Source: an uncultured Bacteroidales bacterium (GTDB lineage Bacteria; Bacteroidota; Bacteroidia; Bacteroidales; Muribaculaceae). Taken from it: a stretch of 48,930 bases of DNA. Positions 24,768 through 48,930 of this stretch are shown in pieces. Below the pieces are notes generated by a model. The model saw nothing but the letters and a program-made list of their open reading frames with translations. It had not been told where the DNA came from and did not search any database. Position 1 is the first letter of the stretch. The number at the start of each line of letters is the position of its first letter. The stretch spans positions 1 through 48,930 of the forward strand of contig CACYSG010000010.1 of the NCBI GenBank assembly GCA_902776955.1. The letters are read 5' to 3'. Position numbers and translations under genes: made by a program.

Positions 24768-24792
24768 AGGGTGCCTAAATTGGCACCCTTTT
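24768..24792 (+). terminator. ftsK terminator
   Basis: GGGTGCC and GGCACCC pair around TAAATT and are followed by TTTTT, 11 bases after the ftsK stop. Confidence 0.9.
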
Positions 24793-24832
24793 TGCAGCAT
24801 AGAGTCATTGTAATCACCGAAATATTTAAGTC

Positions 24833-25444
24833 ATGACAATGAAGAGAATTTTTATAGTATTCATTACCACGCTGGCGGCTATTGTCGCCCTGGCTCAGAC
24901 GCCAAGCGCTATTCTTGATAAATGTGTAGCGGCCATCAATGCCGGTGGAGGCGTTACCGCCAATTACACCATCACCTCGGCCCAAGGCACGAGCAACGGC
25001 ACCATCGCCATGCAAGGATCTAAGTTCCGCATCATCTCCCCCGAGGCAAAAAGCTGGTTTGACGGCAAGACGCAATGGTCATGGTCTCCTGTCACGGGAG
25101 AGGTCAACATCACATCTCCCACTGCCGACGAGCTGCAGATGACCAACCCCCTGGCTGCCGCCAGTCACTTCAAGGCGAACTTCAACATGAAGAAGGCCAA
25201 GGCCCAAACGCCAAAGACTAAGGTCATCAAGCTCACGCCCAAGAAAAAAGACAACATCAAGACGCTGTGGCTGTACTTTGACGAAAACACCTCGTTGCTG
25301 AGGACCGCCCGCTTCGAGATGAACGATAAAACGGTTTACACCATCAAAATCACCAATTACAAGCACAAGTCGCTGCCTGCATCGACTTTCACCTTCGATA
25401 AATCGCAGGTTCCCGCCGGCACACAGGTCGTGGACTTGAGGTGA
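24833..25444 (+). CDS. LolA-like outer membrane lipoprotein carrier
   Basis: A 203-aa secreted protein of the LolA/DUF6263-like fold. The signal peptide (MKRIFIVFITTLAAIVALAQ) starts at the second Met of MTM (ATG 24839 is an alternative start). The mature part alternates beta-strands as in LolA: NYTITSAQGTSNGTIAMQGS, SWFDGKTQWSWSP, TLWLYFDENTSLLRTARFEM. LolA shuttles lipoproteins through the periplasm to the outer membrane. The ftsK-lolA neighbourhood is common in Bacteroidota. The terminator between them suggests separate transcription, though I saw no consensus promoter. Confidence 0.8.
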   Translation: MTMKRIFIVFITTLAAIVALAQTPSAILDKCVAAINAGGGVTANYTITSAQGTSNGTIAMQGSKFRIISPEAKSWFDGKTQWSWSPVTGEVNITSPTADELQMTNPLAAASHFKANFNMKKAKAQTPKTKVIKLTPKKKDNIKTLWLYFDENTSLLRTARFEMNDKTVYTIKITNYKHKSLPASTFTFDKSQVPAGTQVVDLR

Positions 25445-46842: not shown

Positions 46843-47670
46843 TCAGCCCAAATAGGCCTTGAGCAGTTTGCTCTTCTGCCCCTTCAGGCGACGGATGGCT
46901 TTTTCCTTGATCTGGCGCACACGCTCGCGCGTCAGGTCAAATTTTGCACCAATCTCCTCAAGGGTCATCTCCTGGCAACCGATGCCGAAGAACATCTTGA
47001 GGATGTCACGTTCGCGGGGACTGAGCTGGTCCAACGCACGGTTTACCTCCTTGGCGAGCGACTCCTGGTTAAGCGTCGAGTCGGCCATGGGAGAATCGTT
47101 GTTAGGCAGCACATCGAGCAAGCTGTTGTCCTCACCCTCGACAAAGGGGGCGTCGACCGAGACGTGGCGACCAGACACCTTCATGGTATCGCTGATCTTG
47201 TCCACAGGAATGTCGAGACGTTCGGCAAGTTCCTCGGCCGAAGGACGGCGCTCATGCTCCTGCTCAAACCTGGACTGAGCCTTACTGATCTTGTTGATCG
47301 AGCCCACCTGGTTGAGTGGCAACCTGACGATACGAGATTGTTCAGCAAGGGCCTGGAGGATGGATTGACGAATCCACCACACTGCATAGGAGATAAACTT
47401 GAAGCCACGTGTCTCGTCGAATTTCTGCGCTGCCTTGATGAGGCCCAGATTTCCCTCGTCGATCAAGTCGGGAAGACTCAATCCCTGGTTCTGATACTGC
47501 TTTGCGACAGAAACGACAAAGCGCAAGTGGTCGCCTTGACGGATGCGCTGTGCCAACTCGACTTCCTCATCCACCGTAATGAGTTCCTTACGGCCGATTT
47601 CCTGAAGGTATTTGTCGAGGGACGCGCTCTCGCGATTAGTAATGGATTTTGTAATTTTAAGTTGTCTCAT
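46843..47670 (-). CDS. Primary-type sigma-70 factor with a 10-residue in-frame deletion
   Basis: A 275-aa protein. It starts like Bacteroidota RpoD ([20 protein letters not shown]) and has region 2 ([20 protein letters not shown]), the canonical region 3.0 ([20 protein letters not shown]) and a region 4.2 helix-turn-helix ([20 protein letters not shown]). At residue 48, GD is followed by [13 protein letters not shown], while its neighbour has [18 protein letters not shown]. Ten residues covering the end of region 1.2 and start of region 2.1 are missing. The junction codon is at 47527-47529, a clean 30-nt loss. The gene has a consensus promoter and its own terminator. It could be a specialised or impaired sigma. 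Confidence 0.9.
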
Positions 47671-47695
47671 CTAACTAGTGTAGAGTTTAAGCGTG

Positions 47696-47726
47696 CAAAG
47701 ATACAACAATTCCCTGGAATCTCCAA
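47696..47726 (-). promoter_or_regulatory. Promoter of sigma factor copy 1
   Basis: On the minus strand TTG (47724-47726), a 20-nt spacer and TATCTTTG (47696-47703), an exact consensus 25 bases before the ATG at 47670. Confidence 0.8.
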
Positions 47727-47864
47727 GCAATCGTTCAAAAAATGTAGAAAATTTCAATTTTCGTGTGCTCTAAGCGAGCTATCCGGCACAAAAAAGCCTT
47801 AAATTTCCCTCTTTGGGGCAGGTGAATGCATCACAATGGGGCCTGTGACATGAAGCCGCAGTCG

Positions 47865-48722
47865 TCACCCCAAATAGGAGACGAGCAGACTGCTGCGGCC
47901 ACCCTTGAGACGGCGGATGGCCTTCTCCTTGATTTGGCGCACGCGTTCACGGGTCAGGTTGAAGTGAGCACCGATTTCCTCGAGTGTCATTTCCTGACAA
48001 CCGATGCCGAAGAACATCTTCACGATTTCGCGCTCACGAGGATGGAGCTGCTCGAGCACGCGGTCAATCTCCCGGGAGAGAGATTCATAGTTCAAGCCCG
48101 AATCGGCCAGCGGCGAGTCGTTATTGGGCAGGACATCCAGCAGGCTGTTGTCCTCACCCTCGACAAAGGGAGCGTCGACCGATACCGCGCGGGTGTTGAT
48201 TTTCATCGCCTCGGCGACCTTGTCCATCGGCAGGTCCAGCTCTTCGGCCAACTCCTCGACCGAGGCCCTGCGCTCATGGAGCTGCTCAAATCGCGACTGC
48301 GCCTTATTGGTCTTGTTGATCAGTCCCGTCTGGTTGAGAGGCACCCTGACCGGGCTGGACTGCTCGGCGATAGCCTGGAGAATGGACTGACGAATCCACC
48401 ACACCGCATAGGAGATGAACTTGAAGCCACGAGTCTCGTCAAACTTCTGTGCAGCCTTGATCAGCCCGATGTTGCCCTCGTCAATCAGATCCGAGAGGCT
48501 GAGTCCCTGGTTCTGATACTGCTTGGCCACCGAAACGACAAACCTCAAGTTGGCCATGACGAGTTTCTCGAGGGCGGCCTGGTCACCCTCGCGAATGCGC
48601 TGTGCCAGTTCCACCTCCTCGTCGACGGTGATGAGTTCCTGTCGTCCGATTTCCTGCAGGTACTTATCGAGCGATGCGCTCTCGCGGTTGGTAATTGATT
48701 TTGTGATTTTGAGTTGTCTCAT
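47865..48722 (-). CDS. Primary-type sigma-70 factor, full length, diverged paralog
   Basis: A 285-aa protein whose first 45 residues are almost identical to those of its neighbour. It keeps the segment [11 protein letters not shown] and a normal region 2.1-2.3. After region 2.3 it departs from the standard: [20 protein letters not shown] replaces [20 protein letters not shown] (region 2.4/3.0), and [20 protein letters not shown] replaces [20 protein letters not shown]. Region 4.2 ([20 protein letters not shown]) remains standard. No consensus promoter is seen upstream of 48722. It lies 194 bases upstream of the other copy on the same strand, so the pair is a tandem duplication. Confidence 0.9.
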
Positions 48723-48838
48723 ATTCTATATGCTAATCTATTCTATCGTAATTGTGTGCCCGTGGCAGTCTAATTAATCATGAATAATGTAAAAAATCAC
48801 AGCAAAAATTATGCCAAAATCCCGAAAAAATCAGGCAT

Positions 48839-48901
48839 AAGGTTCATTTTGCAGGATGAAAATCACACATAGTGGTTCTAAGGTTCAATTTGCAGGATGA
48901 A
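48839..48901. repeat. Two near-identical 22-bp direct repeats
   Basis: AAGGTTCA-T/A-TTTGCAGGATGAA occurs at 48839-48860 and 48880-48901 with one mismatch, 41 bp apart. An inverted pair TTATGCC / GGCATAA (48809-48840) lies just before. The window ends 29 bases later, so more copies could follow. Confidence 0.6.
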
Positions 48902-48930
48902 TTTTCGCACCGGGTTTTGCATAACGGGTA

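Follow-up and report, generated by a model that had tools for sequence, protein, structure and literature searches.

The 48,930-nucleotide stretch of a Muribaculaceae draft genome analysed here (the window; contig C10 of a 3.23 Mb assembly in 123 contigs, 89.7% complete) carries close to its end two primary-type sigma factor genes in tandem, and the copy that looks like the standard one lacks a short segment at the junction of regions 1.2 and 2.1. This raises the question of whether the two genes divide the work of a primary sigma factor between them, and whether the gap has a part in it. We consider it likely that the locus holds an old tandem pair with divided roles, a housekeeping sigma factor and an RpoS-like twin fed by RpoN, and that the gap stands outside this design.

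The tandem locus

The following features were assigned at the end of the window.

46843..47670, minus strand: canonical primary (sigmaABfr/RpoD-type) sigma gene, short form, 275 aa (open reading frame; Pfam regions 1.2, 2, 3 and 4)
47526..47530, minus strand: junction of the 30-nt gap, with the H48 codon at 47527-47529, 11 residues being replaced by one (pattern match 47513-47535)
47696..47703, minus strand: -7 box TATCTTTG of the housekeeping promoter predicted for the canonical copy, starting 33 nt before its ATG (motif)
47724..47727, minus strand: -33 element CTTG, 20 nt before the -7 box and 57 nt upstream of the ATG (motif)
47865..48722, minus strand: tandem twin (285 aa), diverged from the primary sigma gene; it keeps the segment and is changed in region 3.0
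48801..48816, minus strand: predicted sigma-54 (RpoN) -24/-12 site TGGCATAATTTTTGCT, 94 nt upstream of the twin ATG and reading towards the twin (motif)
48833..48930, no strand: repeat of 98-99 bp at the contig end, which also forms the start of contigs C1, C66 and C77 in this assembly

Both open reading frames of the tandem primary-type pair that the initial annotation had proposed were found, with the twin as upstream and the canonical short form as downstream copy. A sigma-region-2 search of the 89.7% complete assembly, run as the proposed check for a third primary-type sigma gene, found none; the remaining seven matches lie in open frames of 158-198 aa and are thus of ECF size. The statement that Bacteroidota usually carry one such gene proved too strong, as 14 of 24 Bacteroidales genomes from other families (G037-G060) have two or more RpoD-like matches.

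The repeat at the contig end is identical to the starts of the three other contigs and contains TTCATCCTGCAAA twice, 41 bp apart. It is a dispersed repeat and breaks the assembly just upstream of the twin. The sigma gene or pair is preceded by an htrA-like gene, always of one family, in all 17 loci compared, which include named Bacteroidales (Parabacteroides and Muribaculum, for example), and the one htrA-like protein scanned with Pfam has trypsin and PDZ domains. The best htrA-type match in the source assembly stops 253 nt short of the end of contig C50, a position that would be compatible with the same gene order across the assembly gap.

The downstream copy resembles sigmaABfr, described as the RpoD-like primary sigma factor of Bacteroidota in the accessible part of PMC7366714, in that it comprises regions 1.2 to 4 with no room for region 1.1 and has a housekeeping -33/-7 promoter. 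Unlike sigmaABfr, the copy in the window is 10 residues shorter at the 1.2/2.1 junction, a twin adjoins the gene in part of the genus, and the gene or the twin carries a predicted sigma-54 site. Two RpoD-like genes in one Bacteroidota genome are also known from Dokdonia (Flavobacteriia), where second RpoD homologs were described; a tandem arrangement and a sigma-54 promoter, as found here, are not mentioned in the accessible part of that paper (PMC3587595). In the titles and abstract openings listed by searches of open-licence literature no tandem or RpoN-driven primary sigma factor of Bacteroidota is named.

The 30-nt gap in the downstream copy

Apart from the gap, the canonical short copy reaches up to 100% (rounded) amino acid identity to full-length orthologs of 285 aa. 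Its four Pfam regions are matched in order and all above cut-off, region 1.2 from residue 17 on; owing to the gap, the match to region 2 starts only at position 4 of the profile. The junction reads GD-H-LRFVV, where relatives mostly have GD-QAALDKLV[S/N]AN-LRFVV and the neighbouring gene in the window also keeps the segment. Comparison with the neighbour and the relatives thereby confirmed what had been noted from the window alone, namely the loss of exactly 30 nt, i.e., of net 10 residues, with the frame intact. The assignment of the segment to the 1.2/2.1 junction was borne out by the Pfam limits on the full-length ortholog L080, in which residues 17-49 are assigned to region 1.2 and region 2 starts at residue 54. 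The lost segment therefore spans this junction and comprises the linker together with the first part of region 2.1, and the short copy lacks the intact junction helix of sigmaABfr/RpoD.

An alignment with RpoD sequences had been suggested as a check. Among the other canonical genes of the genus compared (fragments below 270 aa were left out), 82 of 82 retain the segment. Residues A50, L54, V55, A57 and N58, which the short copy has lost, are present in all 82, and A50, L54 and N58 also in 26 of 26 twins. The three PDB sigma factor alignments that were printed cross the stretch ungapped. A degenerate pattern search that detects only the exact form GDHLRFVV found the junction in one of 397 family genomes, which is the source genome itself. 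A conserved short sigma form is therefore rejected, and the idea that relatives might grow with the short form as their sole primary sigma factor found no example among these 397 genomes. Recombination between the two copies was rejected as the origin of the gap as well, since the twin keeps the segment and has only 77% DNA identity to the canonical gene. The closest relative, G019, has CCAA repeats here, but recombination between them would delete 29 nt instead of 30. The flanks of the gap have a microhomology of about one base.

Outside the gap, the short copy differs from the G026 gene by 80 synonymous and one nonsynonymous differences and from the G019 gene by 70 and three, where the boundary codon is counted as nonsynonymous and is the site of the single such difference to G026. 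Up to 10 nonsynonymous differences were found to less close canonical genes (G114). Because the differences to close relatives are almost only synonymous, the constraint on the canonical copy either held until very recently or holds even now. AlphaFold2, run with nearly the same alignment for both proteins (40 and 39 rows), gave a pLDDT of about 40-47 over residues 31-120 of the short form and of about 60-76 over most of the matching stretch of a full-length ortholog. As both models are poor (pTM 0.29 and 0.33), this drop over regions 1.2-2 speaks at most weakly for damage by the gap.

The gap may thus have arisen by a very recent deletion or during assembly, or it may be a variant that the cell tolerates; a recent mutation and an error look the same so far. 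We give about an even chance to an error in the assembly or its consensus, or else a minor strain variant, with the working canonical sigma factor at full length. The gap is confined to a single draft assembly (123 contigs), it removes residues that are invariant in the canonical genes compared, the rest of the gene has the constraint of a working gene, and runs of N break these genes in two relatives, G028 and G063. However, the gap is clean, exactly 30 nt long and in frame, short-read assemblers seldom create such gaps away from repeats, and the two copies share only short exact stretches around the junction.

That the gap is real and recent and made the short sigma factor inactive or impaired, so that the intact twin keeps the strain alive, appears rather unlikely to us. 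The lower pLDDT of the short form would fit such damage, and the twin is intact with a conserved region 2.3-2.4 and 4.2 helix, but the frame is kept and the poor models make the structural comparison a weak one. In addition, the twin has no housekeeping -33/-7 pair and could therefore carry vegetative growth only if RpoN were constantly active. The initial annotation had considered that the gap is real and tolerated, giving a functional short primary sigma factor with an altered core or discriminator interface. This must be called very unlikely: the segment is present in all other canonical genes compared and ungapped in the PDB sequences, and no other family genome has the junction, although the gap is in frame, the only nonsynonymous difference to G026 lies at the boundary codon and the housekeeping promoter is intact. 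For the altered sigma factor competing with its neighbour that was suggested in the same place, the kept frame still speaks, whereas the conservation of the lost residues and, weakly, the lower AlphaFold2 confidence speak against it.

Since it is private to one assembly, the gap cannot define a two-sigma system and would be a side event, either very recent or an assembly error, and probably harmful to the protein if real. If confirmed by reads, it would offer a rare natural test of the region 1.2/2.1 helix.

Divergence and distribution of the twin

According to alignment, tree and Pfam matches the twin is derived from a primary sigma factor and has kept all regions. The window twin is 83% identical to the short canonical copy and differs from it at region 3.0, in agreement with the changed promoter-recognition residues first ascribed to it. 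With region limits that were partly set by ourselves, its divergence amounts to 33% in region 3.0, 36% in region 3.1 and 42% in the C-terminal tail, with 4% in region 2.3-2.4 and 0% in the 4.2 helix; for the clade of 11 twins to which it belongs, the corresponding values against the canonical consensus are 37%, 39%, 34%, 5% and 10%. Position 123, which we take to be R448 of E. coli sigma70, is R in at least 98% of the canonical genes; within the 11-member clade it is S in the window twin, N in six and R in four. The other 15 twins diverge more and more evenly (59% in region 3.1, 59% in the tail, 44% at the positions of the lost segment, 41% in region 3.0), and this high divergence nearly everywhere suggests that relaxed constraint also contributes in twins outside the window's clade.

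In a protein tree of 55 rows, 25 of the 26 twins are placed apart from the canonical genes. The twin of the window and ten others group together in a single clade (SH-aLRT 95), and other twin clades correspond to clades of canonical genes. The dN/dS values are 0.03-0.15 for twin pairs and 0.002-0.03 for canonical pairs; twins evolve faster than the primary gene and are under purifying selection. The possibility of a pseudogene was discarded because dN/dS is well below 1 and the frames are full-length, and gene conversion that keeps the twin young because the dS between twin and canonical gene is about 1.0-1.5 in the three genomes computed.

The twin shares the regions that read the -10 and -35 elements with the primary sigma factor, one of the properties of a group-2 (RpoS-like) sigma factor. 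RpoS of Proteobacteria is likewise an alternative vegetative-type sigma factor, thought to stem from an ancient duplication of RpoD (PMC7527412, accessible part). Unlike RpoS, the twin would be of independent origin, still stands in tandem with its parent, is found in part of one genus and has an RpoN-type promoter by prediction.

The search of the genus, for which mostly draft assemblies were available, matched 89 of 101 genomes, the other 12 being without any match. Of the 101, 26 contain a full-length twin; in G087 a further twin is truncated where the contig ends. All but one of the 26 lie on the same strand as the canonical gene at a distance of 119-979 nt, 22 of them upstream and three downstream (G004, G022 and G063). 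For the 26th, that of G061, a retrieved stretch of 3.9 kb contained no canonical gene. In the tree it groups with an outside sequence, on a branch that is long and has weak support, so that it is perhaps not a genuine twin. When upstream stretches of up to 1,400 nt were searched for a relic of the twin, 60 of 61 had none and the single match was the cut twin of G087. With G087 moved, 60 genus genomes are without a twin upstream of the canonical gene over the same length. Judged by this distribution in draft genomes only, the twin would be dispensable. Among 80 named loci, at least three of which lie within the genus, one has two adjacent sigma genes. In this locus, L087 of the Muribaculaceae MAG NALB_7823_26, a divergent sigma gene (1918-2775) stands directly before rpoD; no sigma-54 site was found in 300 nt before it.

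On the tree of the canonical genes, presence of the twin needs 14 changes. The main twin subclades match canonical clades, which favours an old tandem pair with repeated loss, while exchange of the whole locus by recombination would also be possible. As the duplicate still lies beside its parent and close relatives differ in whether they have it, the steps of promoter partition and of change in regions 3.0/3.1 should be directly comparable.

Other sigma-like sequences were encountered in these searches. Fifteen sequences from the other-family genomes with several RpoD-like matches, primary copies included, were placed in a tree; 14 group apart from the tandem twins and the fifteenth joins G061 on its long, weak branch. 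Short open reading frames of about 115-200 aa, some with a stop, represent truncated sigma-like genes that resemble only about the first 130 residues of a primary sigma factor (35-49% identity). They were found at G019:C53:12209, G009:C24:30122, G032:C25:118705, G002:C210:10163 and C11:10097 and further in G093:C16, G095:C8, G102:C5, G114:C26 and G004:C395; a text-pattern scan of some of these loci picked up none.

Promoters of the pair and the predicted link to RpoN

The consensus promoter that had been assigned to the canonical copy was recovered as the motif CTTG-N20-TATCTTTG, with boxes starting 57 and 33 nt from the ATG. The -7 consensus TAnnTTTG lies within 250 nt upstream of 49 of 50 canonical genes, at 31-47 nt from the ATG. 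It occurs before three of 26 twins, at 85, 145 and 204 nt, and never at the canonical position. The complete -33/-7 pair is present before 45 of 50 canonical genes versus 0 of 26 twins.

In place of this pair, a sigma-54 site that scores at least 10 of 12 with GG-N10-GC precedes 25 of the 26 twins, with TGGCA-N6/7-TTGC in 24 of 26; in a shuffle control (dinucleotide model, same stretches) 36 of 5,200 reached score 10. The site in the window has the lowest score of the 25, i.e., 10 of 12, and the contig ends 114 nt upstream of it. No site was found for the G089 twin, and G090 has only an imperfect one 213 nt upstream. Antisense sites were counted in one of 111 cases. The three downstream twins also have a sigma-54 site before the twin, and no such site was found before the canonical gene in the two of these genomes with enough upstream sequence. 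It is most improbable that the GG-N10-GC sites are due to chance or to other transcripts and that the twin is a decaying duplicate outside RpoN control. Its fast evolution and its patchy presence, with 14 changes on the canonical-gene tree, would agree with decay, but the frequency of the site relative to the shuffles, its near restriction to the sense strand, and full-length frames with a dN/dS well below 1 do not.

In the preferred explanation, that of divided roles, the downstream copy would be the housekeeping sigma factor, transcribed from its own sigmaABfr-type promoter. The upstream twin would be transcribed from the sigma-54 promoter and thus be made when RpoN and an enhancer-binding protein are active. 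With region 2.3-2.4, which reads the -10 element, and the 4.2 helix conserved but regions 3.0/3.1 changed, it would probably read an overlapping but shifted set of promoters and act as an RpoS-like alternative sigma factor fed by RpoN. The sequences directly show the gene pair, its divergence and selection pattern, the promoter motifs with their distribution, rpoN and one strong match to a sigma-54 activator; from them we infer the activity of the promoters, the induction of the twin by stress, its altered choice of promoters and the fate of the short copy. The split of roles that the initial annotation had raised as a possibility is thus backed by the differing promoter types throughout the genus and by the divergence of the twin in regions 3.0/3.1; the gap lends it no support.

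Sigma-54 sites also occur before canonical genes. When 300 nt upstream were scanned (at least 150 nt available), a site was found in 35 of 60 genomes without a twin versus one of 25 with a twin (Fisher p = 1.6e-6, a value that overstates independence as the genomes are related). Of these 35 sites, 23 lie within 100 nt of the ATG, most at 77-82 nt and just upstream of the housekeeping promoter, while the other 12 are farther away than 100 nt and possibly do not act on the sigma gene. The 25 twin-less genomes without a site belong chiefly to one clade of 14. The 80 named loci gave three sense matches, two of them in the genus and one weak without TTGC, and one antisense match. When TTGC was required, 24 of 83 canonical genes have a twin, 34 have a sigma-54 site and 25 have neither, G087 being counted among the latter. 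In one half of the midpoint-rooted canonical tree 19 rows have a twin, 31 a site and two neither, so that 50 of 52 fit one of the two states; in the other half (31 rows) five have a twin, three a site and 23 neither, i.e., eight fit, and the clade of 14 has neither. Tentatively, the RpoN promoter might change hands, being owned by the twin when present and inherited by the primary gene when the twin is lost. This is quite possible, though we would not rely on it. With 50 of 52 genomes in one tree half in either state, each RpoN response would then add a primary-type sigma factor, in the form of a dedicated RpoS-like twin or of additional housekeeping sigma factor.

In 12 members of a clade that has neither twin nor sigma-54 site (G001, G010, G011, G072, G078, G081, G094, G096, G104, G109, G111 and G122) a common TTAA..TTAAACTTTT-like stretch with a downstream CATC was seen by eye before rpoD, which may be another second promoter, perhaps ECF-like.

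A second, stress-type promoter on the primary sigma gene is known from E. coli rpoD, which has a heat-shock (sigma32) promoter. Unlike there, the predicted site here is of the sigma-54 type and precedes the twin where a twin exists. A sigma-54 promoter before a sigma70-family gene, for which an activator is needed, is described for the RpoN-RpoS cascade of Borrelia burgdorferi (PMC3037356, accessible part). The arrangement predicted here from motifs would be analogous, but in Bacteroidota the gene under RpoN would be the primary sigma gene's own tandem duplicate.

The source assembly has one rpoN (Sigma54_DBD at C5:69084) and one strong match to sigma-54 activators (C7:78602, E 5.5e-66). Four weaker matches are probably other AAA+ proteins; the activator family was also matched in all 14 control genomes, and weak matches mean little. 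The pattern TGGCAYN5TTGC occurs 83 times in the genome versus 15 times for the reversed pattern. Of the 83 sites, 20 were taken by eye for their T-rich spacers, and 18 of these have an open reading frame within 300 nt (the longest downstream one was used). Seventeen frames were scanned; seven had no Pfam match at 1e-5 and ten had one: LemA, thioredoxin, NUDIX/NrtR, P-type ATPase, glycosyltransferase, AAA-like, Lnb, Bax1-I, ClpS and zinc metallopeptidase. According to the accessible part of PMC12316311, sigma-54 controls GrpE and GroES in Bacteroides thetaiotaomicron, chaperone and protease genes of Bacteroidota are under sigma-54 with proteases enriched, and COG0568 sigma genes are in general associated with predicted sigma-54 sites. 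Together with the genes behind the sites found here, this makes a role of the twin in proteostasis or envelope stress plausible. The tandem locus also suggests an RpoN-fed primary-type sigma factor in a genus with rumen members. In the window itself, a further sigma-54-type site, TGGCACCCTTTTTGC, lies at 24781-24795 on the plus strand, 37 nt before a LolA-type gene that begins at 24833.
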